Shown here: piece by piece, positions 18,554 to 45,850 of the stretch | Position numbering within the stretch: position 1 is the first letter of the stretch | How the letters are laid out: every line of letters begins with the position of its first letter | Source of the DNA: Gloeopeniophorella convolvens | Taxonomy: Eukaryota > Basidiomycota > Agaricomycetes > Russulales | Length of the DNA: 64,000 nt | Assembly: GCA_022496205.1 (NCBI GenBank) | Contig: WTXD01000055.1 | Span: forward strand, 105,692 to 169,691 | Direction: 5' to 3' | Notes under the pieces: generated by a model | What the model was told of the DNA's origin: nothing | What the model saw: the letters and a program-made list of their open reading frames with translations, nothing else | The model's database searches: none | Program-made: the position numbers and the translations under genes

Positions 18554-18835
18554 TATTTGCTTGACTGCAGATTCTGTGGGTCCCGGGGCCGAAGCGCTCC
18601 ACAGGTGGGTACACAGTTTGGAAGAGTAGTGTGGCAGTGGGATGTAGTCGCAGTGTCATTGACAGAAAAGGAGGCAGCTTCGGGTGGGAAGTTGAGGATG
18701 GCAGTGCTGCGGCAACGGTGGCGGGTCAGACATGTATGACAGATTACAGTTGGATGTGGTTTACCCAATGTTACCAATCCACGACTATGACATTGTCAAC
18801 AAACTACGCAGGTGTGGGTGGGAGTGAAGGGAGTA

Positions 18836-19533
18836 CTATGCCCAATCAGGAAGTGAACATGACCAGGAAGTGAACATTTTGGAAAGATTGACTCCGCATG
18901 CAACAATGGCTGCATAGCATTTGTCGATATTTTTATCCAGTGAATGCATAGATCCGTTCTACGTGCTTGCGAAGTTTTAAGCCGATTGAGCTGCTAGATG
19001 ATGCTAGAGAAATCGGTACTTCTGAGACATTGATGTGGACAGCTGCCAATCCTCCAGGAACAAGGTAAGAAATAGCTTATACGCCATGAAACCTGATATT
19101 CACAATACACTTATACATATCTACTATATCTCCAAGTTTTGTGTCATTCACATGGGTAGAACACCATCTGCGAAAGCTTTCCCTCCGGGGGAGCTCTAAG
19201 CGTGACAGAGGAGATCTAAGCTCCGCCGCCGGAGCGCGTGAACGACGCGTTGCGCGAATGTGCATCAGTGGGTTCCGGTCCACGATGAGATCGAATCTAT
19301 GATCCCAGCAGGCGTGACAATCCGTGACAAGCGCGCACTCCTTGCGGGCACTTTTCTCTCGACTTCGGCTTTGCTCTGGCACGCTCAGATCTCAACAAAT
19401 AAATCTAGAACTTAATAGGTACATAAAAAACACATCAAGGAATACACATGCAAAGTTCCAAGAGATTTGATTGAGGAAAAACCCGAGATTACCAGGAAGT
19501 GAATATTTGTGTCCACTTCCCGATTGGTCATAG
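18836..19533. mobile_element. 698-bp non-autonomous DNA transposon (MITE), uninterrupted copy
   Basis: The ends form imperfect terminal inverted repeats of about 24 bp: CTATGCCCAATCAGGAAGTG at the left; the reverse complement of the right end starts CTATGACCAATCGGGAAGTG. TA dinucleotides flank both ends (18834-18835 and 19534-19535). Subterminal motifs repeat AGGAAGTGAACA twice at the left, and a direct CAGGAAGTGAA plus an inverted CACTTCC sit near the right end, as expected for transposase-binding sites. No transposase is encoded. The copy matches the two arms of the element at 37081-43829 (437 + 261 bp) in length exactly, with about 20 substitutions in the left arm. The mobilising family is not identified; TA targets are typical of Tc1/mariner-like elements. 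Confidence 0.9.
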
Positions 19534-21434
19534 TATCCGTGTCTACCTCAACCAATCCACCAGTCTTCCACCCATCGGCTTCGGCTGTCTGGGTGAATTC
19601 CCTTTGGTTCCTCAGCCTGGCCATAAGTCTGGCTTGTGCACTCATCGCGACGCTCTTACAACAGTGGGCCCGCCGATACCTCCACGTCACCCATCGTCGT
19701 CACGCAATCCACACGCGCGCTCGTATCCGGACGTACTTTGCAGAAGGCGCAAGGCGACTTCATTTACCGACAGTCGTCGGAATTATCCCTGCCCTACTTC
19801 ATGTTTCAGTGTTCTTATTCTTCGCCGGCCTCGCTATCTTCGTCTCCGACATCAACCGCATCGTCTCTGCGATCCTACTCTCGTTCATCGCGACATGCGG
19901 ATTGGCCTATATCATGCTCTCTATCCTTCCCCTCATTTTCCATAGCAGCCCATACCAGACCCCCCTATCAGCCGCCATCTGGTCCTTCTTCTATGGGACC
20001 TTTCTTCTCATACTAAAGCTGGCGCGTCGTGCAATAACGCAGCTCCGTCCTCTCCCGCAGTACGATCAGGGAAGCTTCCGCAGCCTCATAAACAAGGCGT
20101 TCTGGAGGTGTCATTCGAGATTCAAGCTTGGCATGAGCAAGACTTGCGAGAACTCAGCAACTCTCGTACCCTGGACGATCGACGCCCGGGCACTACTCTG
20201 GACGCTCGAATCAATTGACGATGACAGCCAACTGCTACGCTTTCTTGCGGCAATCCCTGGGTTTCATCAGTCGAGGGTGGTGCGCAGTCCTAAGGCCATA
20301 TTGTCGACGATGGCCTCCCCTACTGGTCAGCGTTCCGTTGACATACCCGCGCGAGTCCTCAGCATCATGCATTCACCACCTACAATCGGCACGCTGGCGA
20401 AATCCGAGAAACGGCAACGCGATTTGACATGCCTCAGAGCGCTCTATCACATCCCTGGATGCATAGTCAACATCTTGCTCAACAGCCTCAATAAGAATAT
20501 ACAGACATCCGCGTTCTCACGTCTGTTCGGCACCATGGAATCATGGCTTCTCGCAGAGGCGTTGAGTCGTGGTTATGACCGCGACGTAGCCCTTGCTGCG
20601 CGCTGCGTGGCCGCAGTACTGCCAAGGCGGAAGCTGTACGAGATCAATGTTCCGATCCTTATGCGCCAGCTGCGCCTCTCGAAACCCGTCGTACGCGAAT
20701 ACCTCCGGTCTCGCGACAGCATCCTATTCGCCAACCTCATCCGTTTCACCTGGTACATTATCAACCACGCTAGCGACATGGACGACAAGCTCCGTAGTAT
20801 CCCGGCCATGGAACGAGATGCGGTCCTCACTATTGGTGGCATATCGCCGCCAGACGACACCAATCGCTCGAGCTCTGTCACGCTCTCTCCTTCGGCGTTA
20901 CGCATCCTATACCTCCACCAGCTTCTGCGGTATACCTTCGACCACTTGACCGCGGATAGCTTCCAAGTCAAGAAGATCGCCCCCAAGTTGCTGAGTGCAT
21001 TTGCGGAGGTCTGGGACTACGTGGAATACGTCAAACGCACGCCTATCACTCCAGGAACGGCGTACACCGTACAAATGGTTCTGGAGAAACTGCGACCTCT
21101 TCGCGACTCTCTGCCGCGCGCCGCAGAAGCGGAGTCCTCCACCTCCGTTACGAACATATCGGTCACACCAGGTCCGAGTGCCCCTGCACCTGCCTGGCCC
21201 CACGCACCACCAGATCGGGCAGCTGCCTCGGCCGTCCCCGATCGCCCTAGGACTGCGCCTACCGTCCAATCTGTGGCTGCGCCTGCGCCCACGCCTCCTC
21301 GTTCCTTGTATGAGGATCCCACGTTTCGCCCCAACCCTACGTTCCCCGTCCCGAATCCCGTACCATCCCCCAATTCACCTATCCCATCACAGCAGCGTAC
21401 TATGACATCTGATAGTTCTCCCTCCCTCCCATGA
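19534..21434 (+). pseudogene. 5'-truncated DUF6535 gene (copy B) abutting the MITE
   Basis: An uninterrupted frame starts at the MITE edge and runs to the TGA at 21432-21434. It aligns with copy A from the second membrane helix onward (WVNSLWFLSLAISLACALIA, then QQWARRY; ALLHVSVFLFFAGLAIFV; ATCGLAYIMLSILPL), ending in a Pro/Ser-rich tail. The family N terminus (the YGDPSAKVWG-type region and first membrane helix, roughly 180 residues in copy A) is absent, and the 280 bp to the left of the MITE do not contain it. The gene therefore lost its 5' half through the insertion plus a deletion or rearrangement. The remaining frame is free of stops, so loss is recent or a shorter product is made from a start inside the MITE. 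Confidence 0.72.
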
Positions 21435-36777: not shown

Positions 36778-37080
36778 GTTCGCCGCAGGGTTGTGCGGGG
36801 AATCAGCTGGGGGGTTGACCAGTGCGGCGCAACCTCAAAAGCTACTGGTGGGACTACTACACCATCTTTGTGCTCATTGTCGTACTTGCATTCTATGCTC
36901 GTTCCATGAATATGATATTGACATGCGGCATGTACGCTTAAGGTATAAACTTCAGTTGCGAACCTGATCCCAGTGCCTGCGCCCCTGCAGTGACTACATC
37001 TATCAATGTCAGCAGTATCGTCACCACGGTCTGTCAACATCAAGAATTTACGACTTGGGGCGGCGGGGCCAATAAGAATA
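36778..37080. other. Intergenic between eL14 and the nested transposon
   Basis: 303 bp of 3' flank, no gene seen. It ends in the TA (37079-37080) target of the MITE insertion. Confidence 0.5.
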
Positions 37081-37509
37081 CTATGCCCAATCAGGAAGTG
37101 AACATGACCAGGAAGTGAACATTTTGGAAAGATTGACTCCGCACGCAACAATGGTTGCATAGAATTTGTCGATATTTTTATCCAGTGAATGTATAGATCC
37201 TTTCTACGTGCTTGCGAAGTTTGAAGCCGATTGAGCTGCTAGATGATGCTAGAGAAATTGGTACTTCTGGGACACTGATGTGGACAGCTGCCAATCCTCC
37301 AGGAACAAGGTAAGAAATAGCTTATACGCCATGAAACTTGATATTCACAATACACTTATGCATATCTACTATATCTCCAAGTTTTGTGTCGTTTACATGG
37401 GTAGAACACCATCTGCGAAAGCTTTCCCTCCGGAGGGGCTCTAAGCGTGACAGAGGAGATTCAAGCTCCGCCGCCGGTGCGCGTGAACGACGCGTTGCGC
37501 GAATGTGCA

Positions 37510-37517
37510 TCAGTGGG
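37510..37517 (+). repeat. Target-site duplication TCAGTGGG (left)
   Basis: Perfect 8-bp copy immediately left of the inner element; its partner is at 43561-43568. The intact MITE has a single copy at 19265-19272. Confidence 0.9.
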
Positions 37518-37532
37518 TTAGTCTCCGTTGCC

Positions 37533-37580
37533 GACCTTATGCCGATCGCGGAAGACAGTCGTTCCGCGATGGATAAGGTC
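37533..37580. repeat. Hairpin inside the left end of the inner transposon
   Basis: GACCTTAT and ATCGCGGAA (37533-37540, 37545-37553) pair with TTCCGCGAT and ATAAGGTC (37562-37570, 37573-37580) around an 8-base loop. The right end of the element has a single base in place of this 58-bp segment (37525-37582). Confidence 0.8.
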
Positions 37581-37800
37581 TGCATCAACTTAAGGGGGTT
37601 TGAGAGAGCGACCAGCACCTTCCTCATTTAGATTCTCGCGTTGCACTGTCTCTTATTGTTCTGAGGTAGCATGTAATCCAAAATGTGTGATATATCCGGC
37701 TGCTCATCACTACAATGACATGACGAGGACCGCACGTGCTAAGCACTCTGCATTTGGACAACGCGACCGTGTCTTTGATGCCACCTGAGTCCAGTGTACC

Positions 37801-40800
37801 ATGCCTCCACGCGTGAAACGGAGCCGTGCAGCAGCAGGAAATGACGGATTCATCCAATATGACCCGTCTGCACCTGCACAGAAGAAAAACAAGCCCAAGC
37901 CCAACGAAATCTTAGATGGGATTGCAAAACTGCTTGATGATGCGGGCATGAGCTATGGTAGCTTCCTACACGAGTTCTTCCGCGACGACGTCGACTTGGA
38001 CACGCTCCATGGCCACAAGTTGCAGAGTTTTCTGTCCGGGAAGAACTCACACAACGCTGCCGATACCGTGAACATGATCTGGCACCATCGGTATAGCCAC
38101 GCGAGCGAACGCACACATGAAAGCCACGCGGATTATTTCTCACCTTCAAAGTCACATAAGGACATCAAGTTCGCAGGCCCCGCAATCGCGACATGGTGCC
38201 TCCGCCGAGTAATCGAGCAAACAGAGCAGGAGGCCAAGTACCTTTGCTCGCAGAAAGCCGGTCTTCGTATTCGCGCTGGGAAAGCATCGGCAGGGAAGCA
38301 GTCAGCAAGTGGCCATGCCGCAGGGGGACATGACTCGCCGCAGGGTGAGTAAAGTCAAGGCAGGCTAGTATGGTGCTAATCTATGAGTGCAGAAGCTGTT
38401 CCAAGTACCCAGGGGTCCGCAGACCACACCGACATCGGTCTTGAGCCACAGACCGAGCCATCATCTTCGCAAGCGAGTGCAGGGTCGCCACCTTCAAAAA
38501 CGCGGACGATGCGAGACCCCTACGTTTCGTGGGATCTTGTTCGGCAATTCTCAATGGCCAAACTGACGAAGAAGTATCAACATAACGCACCAGTGACTTG
38601 GAAGATTTTGCGTGACTTTGTGGACGCGGGTGTGGGGGAAGACTCGGAGAACGACGAGGACGCGGATAGTTTGTATCGACCTAAGGATCTTGTGAGTGTT
38701 TCAAAACTGTTAATGTTCGTGTTGATCAAAACTTACCGCGGTATAGGTTTGCACTAGCGTTCTCAGCGAGATGGTCTTCACGCGGAACTCACGCGTTAAC
38801 CTACTGCCGTTGTGCAGAGGGTTGACACTGTTCGCATCAAAAGCACATCAGGCAACATACCGGATAGGCAGCCGCTTCGCACAGAACGTCCCTTATGCAA
38901 CGGTATATGCGGCGCTGATCACCATGTCGAAGGTGGAGCGCGTTTCACGAAACCACCTGTTCAAGGAGCCAAAGCCATCATTGCTCGTAATGGACAATGT
39001 TCAGGTGCAGGCAAATCGCCGAGAACTTGGAACTGGAGTCACCGATAAAATGCTTACTGGCACGGCAGCAACCGTGATCCAGATGGAGGGTTGTACGTGG
39101 GGCGATCTGCTGCTCCGGTTATTCCTGGAGAACATCAAAAAAGAGGAGCGCGCAGAACTTACCATCACCGACGTCCAGGGCAAAATCGATACAGATCATA
39201 TTGCGACCGTGTTTCGATTCCACTTCATCGAAACACTAGTCACATATATCCCTCAATTATTGCACCTGCGTCAGCCAGTCAGTAAACTGTTCAAAGAGGC
39301 AGCACAACGACACCAAATCGACCCTCACCGACATACTGTTGTCTACCCTCTGGGAATGAACAGTGAAAATGAGGTCTCAACACGCGGCGTCAAGGAGGCG
39401 GTCTGTGACTTTCTCAATCAGATCGGCTGCACCGCCGAGACATCGGAGGGACGCGCCATGTTCATTTCTGGTGATGGCAAGACCTTTGAAGGATTGCATA
39501 CAGCTAAAAACATCCTCTCCGGGATTGAAGATGATTTTCGCAGTCTGCGCTTCGCACGACCGGTCTTGGAGCTCTGGCACACAAAATGGACAGACATGAA
39601 TCGCATCTTTGAAGGATTTTGGGGAGGTGACCTCGCGCGCGTCGATCCATCGACCCTTGGCTTCATGGCGCTGCTCACGGGCACCATCAAGCCGACTGCA
39701 GAGTCAGACAAGACAGACTATTACAAAGGGACGCGTACGATCGGCCTCGTGGTCCAAGGGCACATCCTTGATTGTTGGAGGTGCGTAGATATTCTCACAT
39801 TATGGTGCAAAGGTCGTATTAATTTGGTAGGGTGTGGTTCGTGGAGAGCATCCCGCCTGAAGAGCGCGATCAGTTCACACTTTTGGATCATTTCGAGAAG
39901 CTCGGGAGGGAAGATCGCTTACCAAGCTTGACGGCCCTACTTCAGGACGCGGACATATTGGCAACCCGCTATGCAAGTGAGGCGGCATACCTCCGTGCCA
40001 TGGATCCAGCGAGCGAGCACCCAGATTGCTTGCACTCTGTTCCTCGAAACCTGTCGTGGCGCGAGGAAGCAGACCGAGCACAGTGGCCACTTGCAGATGA
40101 AGACAGCGCGGCGCAAGGCGCAGACATGCTCCCGGAAGATGCCGGTGGAGCGGAACCACAGCCACAGCGCAAGCGCAAGCGCCGCAAAGGCAAAGCAAAA
40201 GCAACAGAAGACAACCCTATATCTTTCCACGACGGTCCGTTTCTTGGGGACCACGCATTGGCTAACAGCACTCTGTTCATTCGGAGCGGGGTGTTGTACT
40301 TGGAGGTCGTGCGCGCAGTGAGTTTGGGTGATGCAGGACGCGTCTGGGAAGTTCTCAAGGTCAGCAAACATCTGAGCGTGATTCCTCGGCAAGGGGAGCT
40401 GACTACACCCGCAGATCTGGTTGTTCTCGTTTGCAGGCTCCGGGCACAACCGCTATTCGCAGTACCTTGTGGAAATGTTCTGCAACCTTGAGCTGGAGTA
40501 CCCCGAGCCGATGCGGCGAGCCCTGTTCGAGAACTGGCTCGTCAATCGGACAGGGAAGCCCGGGCACTTCCTCGAGATTGACTTGATGCAGGAACATTTC
40601 AATCACTGGTTGGCACAGTTAGCACAGCACAAGGGCAAGGAGTACGATCATCCATGGTACCGCGAGATATTGTCGCTCCAAGTCGACAGTATTCTCCATA
40701 TCACACGGGAGATGGAGCAAAACGCGCGACTGGAGGCGCGCCGGAAAGCACATACGTCTCCTCATCTTAACTTTGAGCTGATCGAGATCATGAAATCCTG

Positions 40801-41038
40801 CAAAAAATTTCAATTACACGTGCGGTGCGACGGGCGTGACTTTGGTTTTCACGCAAAGGATCACTTCTCTGCAGGGATTGATGTCCTTGGTGACGGGAAG
40901 TTGGGGGAATTCGTCAAGAAGGGGGTGAGGGAGCACACCAATATGACTGAAGAATTACAGATGCCAGAGGGTTACGAAGACCCTACAGTGTACCTAGACC
41001 CCGCTATAACCTTTGAGGATGGTCAATCGATGTGGTAG
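37801..41038 (+). CDS. DUF6589 protein of the inner transposon (candidate transposase)
   Basis: Exons 37801-38344, 38393-38691, 38747-39780, 39831-40359 and 40415-41038 close in phase to 1,009 residues; introns are 48-55 bp. Family landmarks are SLLVMDNVQVQ, MFISGDGKTFEGLHTAKN, RPVLELWHTKWTDMNRIFE, GSGHNRYSQYLVEMFCNLELEY and NWLVNRTGKPGHFLEIDLMQEH, as in DUF6589 proteins that are frequent in mushroom genomes. The N terminus is a basic, DNA-binding-like region (KRSRAAAG, KKNKPKPNE). A nuclear-localisation-like cluster (RKRKRRKGKAKA) lies near residue 700. The D in MDN, D in SGDG and E/D in the EIDLMQEH helix could form an RNase-H-like catalytic triad; that is inference from pattern and context, not established. 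Confidence 0.85.
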
Positions 41039-41308
41039 TTGTACGCGTTGTTGTACTCACCCAGTCCTCCTTCGCTTGGCCGATGGTGCAGCGTGTGATT
41101 GCCCTGCTCTACTCTTCCTCGTGGTTGCTGCACCCACTCTACGAGTTTGGGTATGCCGAGCACCCCGAGCACCCCGAGCAGTGCTCGTGCGCTGCGCTCC
41201 GCGTGATGGGTCGGACACCACCACTTCGCGACCCGATGGTGCGTAGTCTCCGTTGGCGTCGCCATCAGTCACTTCATGCGCTGTATCAGACTATCAGCGT
41301 GTGCATGT
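41039..41308. other. Spacer between the two transposon genes
   Basis: 270 bp of convergent 3' region. It holds a short tandem repeat of GAGCACCCC (41158-41180). Confidence 0.5.
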
Positions 41309-43315
41309 CTACAAGTAGCAGCGTGTCATACCGCGTTTCTTCTGCACCTTTGGACCAGGTTTCTCAGCAAGCTCTACATCGAAGACAGCGTTGAGAGCCT
41401 TGACAGTGTCGAAAAGAGCCGGTCCATCGGCCTCTAGATGTTTCCAGTCATAGCAGATAGCAGCCAACTGCTCGCGGTCGCGGATTCGATGAAAATCCGC
41501 GACGATCGCTTTGTGCATCGCGATCGGCATATATGCAGTCCAGGGAAGATGTACGGCAGACGTATCCATGCTCAAAGCGTACCGCCGGCGCAGAAACTTG
41601 TCGACCTCACGATAGGCGATGAATTTCTGGTCCAGGCCTAATGGGGTTCGCGATGTGAGGTTGTCCGGCGCGTCGTCCATGGGAAGATCTTCAACTGATC
41701 TTTCTTGCTGAGGGTCTTCAACATTGGCTCCTTGGGTTCTAGATGTGGGTGTAGACATGAGGAGTGCAGGGGGGTGGTGGGAAGGCGGCTGGCGGCGCAT
41801 ACATCCCGAACATGGGAGGGGACGGTCGGTCGCGAGACAGTCTTGCAGGTCACGGGTATCAGGCGCCGGGCCCGCAAAAAGCCGGTTGAGTTCGACTACC
41901 ACGCAATCCCCGCGCACGTGTGCCTGGACAACTCGAAGATTCCCTAAGTCCTTCAGCGGCCCACTCCGAGTCTTGCTCTTGTTCGACACTGCCATCACCT
42001 GTGAATCTGGTACGGTTTCTTGCTCTTCAAGCTCATTAATATCCGATTCTTCAAGGCCCTTCTCGACCGCTGTGACATGGGGTTGCTCGATGTAAGTGAT
42101 TCCGAGCGCTGGTCGTGCCGGATTCCTTCCGGCTCGATGAAGCTGCTGAAAGAGTGTTTCTGCAGTATCAGGAAGCCCGAAATTCACAGATATGCGCACG
42201 TCACGGAGAGTATCGACTCCCATGCCGAATTTTATTGTCGCGATGATCACCGTGAACTCGGGATCGTCCAGGAAGTCTGTGAGTGTTGTTGTGTCGGTAC
42301 GTCCGTCCTCTGTGGTCCCGTTGTACAGACGGATTCGCCGCTTGCGCTCCGCCGCGCTAGCAAGTGTCAGTCGCCACAGGTACGAAGCAACATCGAGTCC
42401 CTGGCCAGATGTTTTGCAGAATACGATAACCTTCTTTCGACAGGATGCGATCCATGCAATATCCGGAAACTTCCCATCCTTTGGATTGATTGCATGTCGG
42501 AGCGTCCTGAAAACGAGGCGCATGTTCGGTCGCATGATCGGGCGCCGAATCGTGATATAACTTCGGTCCTGGAAGCCCACGAGGTCCATCAGTGCACGCT
42601 GCGCTGCCAGGGTCAGTGTAGCTGTTAAGAACAAGACTGGACAGTCTGATCTGATGCGAAGACACAGGGACGTGATTTTTTTGTAGTCCTCGCGGAAGTC
42701 GTTCGACCACGACACGATGACATGCGCTTCGTCCACAACAACCAAAGCGAGCCTCGATTGAACTTCATCACTGCGAAGGACTTTGTTAAAATCGGGTTGG
42801 CCAAGACGTTCCGGCGACACCAGAAGAATTTGCCAAATGCCCTGCAGAATCTCCTTGTGCACATTTCGGCCAGCGTCCGCCGCCATACGCATTGTCTTGC
42901 TATCGAGTGAGATTGCGCGCAGGCCCATACGCGTCATCTCTTGTACCTTTCATCAGCTGCTACGTGAGTCTTGCTCTGTGAGTATCAAATTGCCGCTCAC
43001 TTGACTGTCTGCCAGCGCCGTCAATGGCGTCACATTAATGACCATCGGACATGGATGAACAGGGATGCCATGCGCGCGCAGGTCGGGGTGGCGCAAGAGC
43101 AGGCCGTTCAACAAAAGATGGAGGTACATCGAAGCGGTTTTTCCTTCTCCACATCCCGCGACGATAAGCTGATTCTTCTTGGCCAGTATATTAGCTGTGG
43201 CATCGACCTGCCAATCGCGTGGCCCAGCCGGCCACTGAGTAGACAGATGATTGGTTAGAGTAGTTTTGATATATGATTTGCATTCTTCTGACTGGAGACT
43301 TGTTGTGTTGCTCAT
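41309..43315 (-). CDS. RecQ-like DEAH-box DNA helicase of the inner transposon
   Basis: Exons (minus) 43315-43001 and 42946-41309 (54-bp intron, GTGAGC...AAAG) give 650 residues. Superfamily 2 motifs are motif 0 (RDWQVDA), Walker A GCGEGKT (residues 54-60), DEAH (about 177-180), FLTATL, the C-terminal helicase block VIVFCKTSGQG, FGMGVD and QLHRAGR (motif VI). The order and spacing are RecQ-like. The C-terminal third is unusual: no zinc-binding or HRDC domain is recognised, but a CSGCMRR segment and a helical end are present. It is convergent with the DUF6589 gene, 270 bp apart, and presumably acts in transposition or repair of the donor site (inference). Confidence 0.88.
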
Positions 43316-43465
43316 ATTTCAAGTGAGAATCTGACTTTACAAAGTACAGAGGGTCAGGAAGCCCATGAAAAGAGCGACAATTACTTGTTATTGCGAACAA
43401 TGGTAACGGACGCGTCTTGGTACGCGTCTGGTCATGTGACTATATTATGCTACTGTAATGACATG

Positions 43466-43489
43466 ACCCTTCGGAGAGTATCCGAGGGT
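43466..43489. repeat. Small hairpin near the right end of the inner transposon
   Basis: ACCCTTCGGA and TCCGAGGGT pair, with one bulge, around a 5-base loop. It may mirror the larger hairpin at the left end. Confidence 0.5.
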
Positions 43490-43560
43490 GGCACATGGCT
43501 CGTCCAAAACAGGAAGCTGACCGTCGTCCACTGAAACCCCCTTAAGTTGATGTAGACTAA

Positions 43561-43568
43561 TCAGTGGG
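43561..43568 (+). repeat. Target-site duplication TCAGTGGG (right)
   Basis: Perfect 8-bp copy immediately right of the inner element; its partner is at 37510-37517. Confidence 0.9.
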
Positions 43569-43993
43569 TTCTGGTCCACGATGAGATCGGATCTATGATC
43601 CCAGCAGGCGTGACAATCCGTGACAAGCGCGCACTCCTTGCGGGCACTTTTCTCTCGACTTCGGCTTTGCTCTGGCACGCTCAGATCTCAACAAATAAAT
43701 CTAGAACTTAATATGTACATAGAAAACACATCAAGGAATATACATGCAAAGTTCCAAGAGATTTGATTGAGGAAAACCCCGAGATTACCAGGAAGTGAAT
43801 ATTTGTGTCCACTTCCCGATTGGTCATAGTACACTGTTTGCAGGGTGATGTCTGCCAGCCACGTGGCAAAGATTGTTCGCGGCCCGCGCTTTAACCTAGG
43901 AAGTGTACAACTTTCCCAGCAACTCGCATCTTTAACGTCAGCCGCAAGCTGATTATCATTTGGGGTAACTGTGCGCTGGCGCTTGGATGGACC

Positions 43994-45850
43994 ATGTCAA
44001 TCACGATAAAAGCTGAATATGCGCCTGCGAGCTCTTCACTTGATTGTCCCATTTATCCGACATGGTTCGCAATCTGTGTGTCTAGTCCTGCGACCAAGCC
44101 ACTGACATCTGACCAGGCGATAGAACTCGACGCCATGCCTGCGCCCCCAGTGACGAAGCAGATGATCGCTGGCACACAACCTGCTCCGGGGAGGCCACCG
44201 CTGCTCCTGCGGCTGCCCGTGGAGCTTCTTGACCTGATCGCGTCTTTCGTGGCTACACACCGCGACGTCGTCGCGCTTGCGCTGGTCTGCCGCGGTCTCA
44301 CGGACGTCGTTATCCCCGCACATACTGCGTACCGCGCCGTTCGTCTGCTCGGCCGACGCGGGCCGACACCATGGGCACACCTCGCCAGCCGCCCAGACCG
44401 TGCGGCAGGAGTGCGCTCCGTCGTCCTTTTCGACCGCCTCGGCGAGGCGCGCTATATCCCGGAGCGCATGCCGCCATGCCTTGAAGCTGCGCCGCCACCG
44501 CGAAAAGAGTGCCTGAGGGTCAAAACGGAGACGCTGCTCGCCGCGGCCGGCGCACTGCGCGCGATGCCGAACCTCCACAGCCTCGTCTTCTCGGGGTCGC
44601 TGTCACGCGACACGCCTGCGCGGCACGCTGCAGAGGCCGCGTTCTGGGAAGCAGCAGGCGTGCACGGCACACTGAGGCATCTCGAGTACACGCAGCCCCT
44701 CAATCCTCCCGCGCCACTCCCAAAATATGCGACCGAAGTGCGACTCTACCCAGTACGTAGCGCCGACCCGTTCCGCTGGGCGCAATAGACATTTTGACAT
44801 GGGCTTCGCAGCTCTGGTCCATCTCCAATCTCACGACGCTCAGCGTGAAGCACGCCGCGTTCCTTCGGCACGCGCCGAGCGTGGTCCAGTTCTCGCGCGT
44901 GCTGCGCAGCTCGCCCGCGCTCGAGGTGCGTTCCAATAGTACCCGCCGCTCCAACGGCGCCACCCCCGACAACGCTCACCATAAGCGTCCGTTCCGCAGA
45001 GCCTCACAATCGAAGTGTACGACTGGTCCTTCGACATGTGCGCGCTCTTCCACGACGTGCGCTTCGCGTGCCTGCGCGCGCTCACGCTCGAGATCTACGC
45101 CGACCCGGCGTGCAACGCCGCGGCGCTCGCGGCGCTCCTCGAGCGCACGCCGACGCTGCGCGCCGCGTCGTGGTTCTTCCTCGACCCGGGCCCGCTCGCA
45201 GCCGGCGCGCTGCCGGCCCTGCGCGCGCTGCGTGTCGACGTGCCCGACGGCCCGGGAAAGATCGGCCGCGCGCTGCTGCCCGGCGCCGCGCTCGAGGCGC
45301 TCGGCCCGCTGTGCGTAAGCCCCGAGGCGCTCGGCGCGCTCGCGGGCATGCGCGGCGACGCGCTGCGCCGGCTCGAGGTGTGCAAGTTCGATAACATCGC
45401 GCTGCTCGCGCGCGTGGTGCGCTTGTTCCCGCGCCTGAGCTGCCTGCGTGTCCCCGCGGTGGACTACTGGCACGACCACTCGTCGGTCACGCCTGCGCCC
45501 GTGCACCTGGTGCGTTTTCCAGTGCGTGCGTATATATCGTCCGTGGCTTGCTGACGCGCGCGCAGGGCGAATGGGTCCATGTGCTTGGCTCGTTGCCCAT
45601 GCTTGAGGTCTTCCGCGGGGTAGCGATCTTCCGTGACCCGGACAGCGCGGCGACAACCGAGGAAAACGACGAGCGCGCGTATGACTTGCTCACTGTTTGC
45701 CCGCGCATGCGGCGCATCGAGCACTGGGACCTGGACCCAAAACACGTCATCCTGCTCAGCCGGGACGGCGAAAACGTCTCCTGGAAGGAGATCCTAGACG
45801 ACGACGCGGACGACTGGAGCACGTGGGTTCGTGAAGTGATGCATTCCTGA
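43994..45850 (+). CDS. F-box protein with leucine-rich C-terminal region
   Basis: Exons 43994-44752, 44812-44925, 45000-45509 and 45566-45850 give 555 residues from the first ATG; a start at 44135 would remove 47 residues. The F-box is LLRLPVELLDLIASFV...ALVCRGLTDVVIP (about residues 70-110). The rest is a string of Leu-rich and Ala-rich blocks (LRALTLEIYAD, LPALRALRVDVP, LRRLEVCKFDN) typical of the divergent LRR-like region of basidiomycete F-box proteins. It would recruit an unknown substrate to an SCF ubiquitin ligase through Skp1. The nested transposon ends only 164 bp upstream, so the promoter was displaced or altered. It is convergent with TRL1. Confidence 0.85.

Follow-up and report, generated by a model that had tools for sequence, protein, structure and literature searches.

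A DNA transposon of probable AcademH type, recently moved and apparently intact, with DUF6589 and RecQ-like helicase genes, in Gloeopeniophorella convolvens

Among DNA transposons that carry their own helicase, AcademH of the Academ superfamily was reportedly named in Kojima 2020 (Mob DNA 11:15). In passages of other papers, AcademH elements are described as having a helicase and target duplications of 9 or 10 bp, and AcademX elements of the same superfamily as having a nuclease instead of a helicase and duplications of 3 or 4 bp (PMC10045372); AcademH is reported at low copy number in Basidiomycota, Ascomycota and Mucoromycota (PMC10799480), a RecQ helicase is noted in Academ (PMC3627910), and fungal Academ copies with a recQ-type domain are described as often annotated as host genes (PMC6416283). 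The 64,000-nucleotide stretch of DNA analysed here (the window), part of contig C356 (169,691 bases) in the 36.7-Mb genome of Gloeopeniophorella convolvens, contains a 6041-bp element with genes for a DUF6589 protein and for a RecQ-like helicase. It is likely a DNA transposon of AcademH type that moved recently and appears intact. Its likeness to the published descriptions lies in the RecQ-type helicase of its own, the 9-10-bp duplications and the occurrence in Basidiomycota; the assignment is a probable one, made by anatomy from published descriptions of AcademH. Because a transposase, a RecQ-type helicase and 9-10-bp duplications are published AcademH features, an earlier reading of the window (the sequence-only reading) was probably wrong to propose an undescribed family: helicase-bearing DNA transposons with such duplications have already been named AcademH.

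The window contains one bounded element carrying two genes. The element was inserted within a repeat of about 705 bp that is present in at least 25 places in the genome (among the matches listed), and this repeat was continuous across the site, without the element, in 15 of 15 loci examined, one of them being the window's own 18831-19535; an uninterrupted copy (L074) was 100% identical over 703 bp. These copies represent the empty site, showing that the borders of the element are not due to chance. One base of the target duplication is ambiguous (10 or 11 bp), and 10 bp was preferred because the termini are symmetric and other copies agree. The precise ends claimed in the sequence-only reading were borne out by the empty site and by the ends shared with other copies, while the borders had to be moved from 37518-43560 to 37519-43559 and the 8-bp duplications replaced by 10 bp for this element and 9-10 bp for the perfect duplications of two-ended copies. 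The invaded repeat (window 37076-37518 and 43570-43831; also 18831-19535) is present in many copies, is bounded by inverted ends (about TACTATGNCCAATCNGGAAGTG) and looks like another, non-autonomous transposon. The following features were assigned:

37519-43559, no strand: whole transposon, 6041 bp (TAGTCT...AGACTA), with ends common to other copies in differing flanks and an empty site
37509-37518, no strand: left copy of the 10-bp target duplication ATCAGTGGGT, present as a single copy in the uninterrupted repeat
43560-43569, no strand: right copy of the 10-bp target duplication ATCAGTGGGT, likewise single in the uninterrupted repeat
37519-37524, plus strand: left terminus TAGTCT; four other families start alike
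43554-43559, minus strand: right terminus (AGACTA on the plus strand)
37583-37601, plus strand: left subterminal repeat CATCAACTTAAGGGGGTTT, from the sequence
43534-43552, minus strand: right subterminal repeat, the inverted match of the left one, from the sequence
37533-37580, plus strand: stem-loop of the left end (z -4.9), with no counterpart at the right end (z +0.5)
37801-41038, plus strand: DUF6589 gene with five exons, likely DDE transposase
41309-43315, minus strand: RecQ-like helicase gene with two exons

As the sequence-only reading had stated, the two genes lie tail to tail within the element, and both frames are open once the inferred introns (four and one, respectively) are removed. 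The DUF6589 gene (exons 37801-38344, 38393-38691, 38747-39780, 39831-40359 and 40415-41038, plus strand) codes for a product of 1009 aa that matched Pfam PF20231 with E=1.6e-114. A superfamily II, RecQ-type helicase of 650 aa is encoded inside the borders on the minus strand (exons 43315-43001 and 42946-41309), with DEAD and Helicase_C domains above the Pfam cut-off and with RecQ, BLM, RECQ5 and WRN as its top sequence matches among solved structures. Pfam revealed no transposase family besides DUF6589 and no Helitron_like_N or PIF1 match in the element. Helitrons also carry their own helicase and a hairpin near one end, but combine an HUH nuclease with a PIF1-type helicase and make no target duplication, whereas the window element has inverted termini and duplications. 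The suggested KDZ-like kinship, for which the abundance of KDZ elements in mushrooms might speak, was given practically no credence, as Pfam showed only DUF6589 and Zisupton duplications are 8 bp long, as against 9-10 bp in the window family.

Several lines of evidence indicate that the DUF6589 protein is likely the DDE transposase of this element with inverted termini. Since a Foldseek search of the predicted structure against PDB gave no match at E<=0.001, a second fold comparison was carried out with VIA, in which the model resembled the RNase-H transposases Hermes, P element and Tn5, with hAT (Hermes) and P element ranking first. An RNase-H-like fold, expected of an AcademH transposase, was thus seen in a predicted model, and DUF6589 proteins share a conserved acidic triad, likely D263/D423/E651 in the numbering of P0001, a public G. 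convolvens protein 95% identical over the part searched. Together with the recurring gene pair described below, these results support the earlier proposal of DUF6589 as the transposase of a helicase-carrying element, including the structure prediction with three acidic residues to which it had pointed. The hAT and P elements carry no helicase, hAT duplications are usually 8 bp long in contrast to the 9-10 bp found here, and the element's proteins had no Pfam match to hAT or P element families; by duplication length and Pfam the window element does not belong to either group, resemblance of fold being a matter apart from membership. A profile search built from 55 homologs returned 19 proteins, all of them PF20231, the named ones being fungal and none being named Academ. 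DUF6589 was named nowhere in the literature searched, so that a link from this Pfam family to Academ-type transposases may not have been written down before. This silence and the ranking of hAT and P element in the fold comparison would also suit a lineage of its own outside Academ, which acquired a RecQ helicase independently and has only the stagger length in common with AcademH; we consider this distinctly unlikely, given that helicase, 9-10-bp duplication and Basidiomycota make up the combination described for AcademH in the passages seen.

A second large copy, on C334, was 99.8% identical to the window element (13 mismatches and a single gap in 6041 bp) and had a 9-bp duplication and a broken helicase frame. 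In addition, nine related copies of about 700 bp, 99.1-100% alike, kept both termini and have no room for genes. When one of these was compared with the large element, the match was 90% in the left 230 bp and 78% in the right ~205 bp, and the short copies are therefore relatives rather than plain deletions of it. Among the resulting 11 two-ended copies (six partial copies, L042, L043, L072, L073, L076 and L080, were left out), nine had perfect direct duplications, seven of 9 bp and two of 10 bp; the ~700-bp copies accounted for seven of these (six of 9 bp, one of 10 bp). The 9 or 10-bp duplication of AcademH was thus found in all but two copies (L037 and L038, C383:680065-681599), which lie inverted side by side with their target duplications exchanged, as after recombination (inversion) between copies, to judge from the flanks. 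L040, on a 17.6-kb contig and one of the nine with a perfect duplication, has a flank in common with one of the C383 copies, to which it may be allelic. Kolobok elements target TTAA. KolobokH, the other RecQ-bearing transposon published from fungi, shares this helicase type with the window element and occurs in fungi only, but none of the nine perfect duplications was TTAA, their length of 9-10 bp contradicts it, and the window element's helicase is a separate convergent gene and not a part downstream of the transposase domain, which makes KolobokH highly improbable.

To follow the gene pair across the genome, we merged 34 DUF6589 match rows into 21 loci and 22 helicase rows into 21 loci. At 13 of the 21 DUF6589 loci a helicase followed downstream at no more than 5 kb, encoded on the opposite strand (tail to tail); two loci (C68 and C88) run off the contig, and no helicase was found at C57, C4, C2, C342:144k, C105 and C10. 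Conversely, eight helicase loci had no DUF6589 nearby; in the case of C344, the contig ends before the side on which a transposase would lie. Comparison of copies yielded the left ends of four further families (A-D), every one starting TAGTCTCGG. For one copy per family, the genome was searched for an exact match to the predicted right end, AGACTA followed by the 9 bp that flank that copy on the left. A single such match, at the expected place, was obtained for family B (C251) and likewise for family D (C290), delimiting elements of ~6.2 kb and ~7.0 kb, respectively, that enclose both genes; the predicted right end and flank of family C had no exact match in the genome. The co-occurrence of DUF6589 and helicase, for which the sequence-only reading had suggested a genome-wide test, thus held at 13 of 21 loci in this genome, and their enclosure by matching termini and duplications in two of the four copies tested (B and D, not A and C). 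The sole exact match for family A (copy on C374) was on another contig (G000:C29:34004-34018), possibly a chance match, a rearranged copy or an allele. At G000:C290:135010-148037, the family D element (141032-148037) seems to interrupt a family B element at its right end, and the coordinates suggest a nested pair of DUF6589 elements. A family D-like left end (G000:C55:6894-6965) is separated by ~6 kb from a helicase piece (C55:12888-13973). No DUF6589 match lies in the interval, and the two may belong to an element that has lost its transposase or has one that is too divergent. To the right of the window element, an open frame (43994-44788) resembles, by eye, the start of an F-box-type host gene.

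The two ends of the element differ in a stem-loop just inside the left terminus. It was clearly beyond shuffles in four of five families (z -4.9 in the window family, -6.6 in A, -4.3 in B and -8.4 in D), while that of family C folded little better than shuffles (z -0.9; 39/200 as good). In families A-D the stem starts at base 12; that of the window family, which was not aligned in register with the others, starts at base 15. No stem-loop was found at the right end, tested in the window family (z +0.5). Covariation across five rows (three pairs changed on both sides; 41/500 shuffles reach the same) was weak and suggestive only, and pairing was 85% in register versus 29-46% when slid, which follows partly from the choice of structure. 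Nothing on Academ hairpins or solo ends turned up in the literature searched, which did not include Kojima 2020.

Left ends were also found alone. In 29 of the 42 matches listed for the left-end query (best 40 of 127 candidates scored), the match stopped at element position 46-48 (5) or 55-63 (24), inside the 3' arm of the stem or at its base, so that the border at TAGTCT is fixed and the hairpin-side border variable. When up to 3 mismatches were allowed, the first 18 bases of the element occurred at 153 sites, two-ended copies included, versus 38 for the reversed control. The duplication score was reached at eight of 20 left-only sites examined (including L044-L060), with five duplications of 9 bp and the others of 10-12 bp, three of them without mismatch, compared with 1.0% on average and at most 11% in 200 shuffles; the other 12 sites were below the score. 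Short left-only matches were also seen in family D (11/42 rows, stopping at base 30-52) and family B (2/12 rows, stopping at base 40). No comparable class of solo right ends was seen among the best 40 of 65 candidates scored, a weak negative as 25 rows were the invaded repeat, and no empty sites for solo left ends were seen among the loci examined. The solo left ends resemble one-sided insertions that stop at the hairpin. As they are intron-sized, an introner origin was also considered: their removal at 17 sites restored no convincing long frame at the ten with a duplication that we judged real (8-14 bp; largest gain 158 to 183 codons), and at L050, which has no duplication, the stop-free stretch grew from 70 to 201 codons. 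This idea is unsupported, not disproved.

The best supported mechanism is DDE transposition with a 9-10-nt stagger. The DUF6589 protein, acting through D263, D423 and E651, would recognise the element ends, cut at TAGTCT/AGACTA and join the ends to target strands nicked 9-10 nt apart, presumably by cut-and-paste; the RecQ-like helicase may unwind either the element or the hairpin in it, allowing repair or copying to be completed, and the one-sided stem-loop would make the two ends unlike. Because duplications start at the hairpin-side border, the joints of the solo left ends appear to be made by the transposase rather than by ragged repair, which led to a more tentative idea, itself rather unlikely, of transposition with a copying step from the left end. 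Here, the TAGTCT end would be joined to a target nicked 9-10 nt apart by one-ended strand transfer, and synthesis would proceed inward and often halt at the hairpin, leaving solo left ends of 46-63 bp with target duplications, whereas the helicase would normally carry copying beyond the hairpin. Alternatively, the solo left ends may arise from abortive gap repair after excision or be an independent tiny element using the hairpin base as its second end. If one-ended copying is true, this DDE family would be partly replicative and the helicase part of the transposition chemistry.

With these results, a probable function can be offered for DUF6589, a protein family that has no name but many members in mushrooms, and the window element, having moved recently and having both genes open, provides material for testing it. 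Moreover, the one-sided hairpin and the solo left ends offer a way to test why certain DNA transposons encode a helicase of their own.
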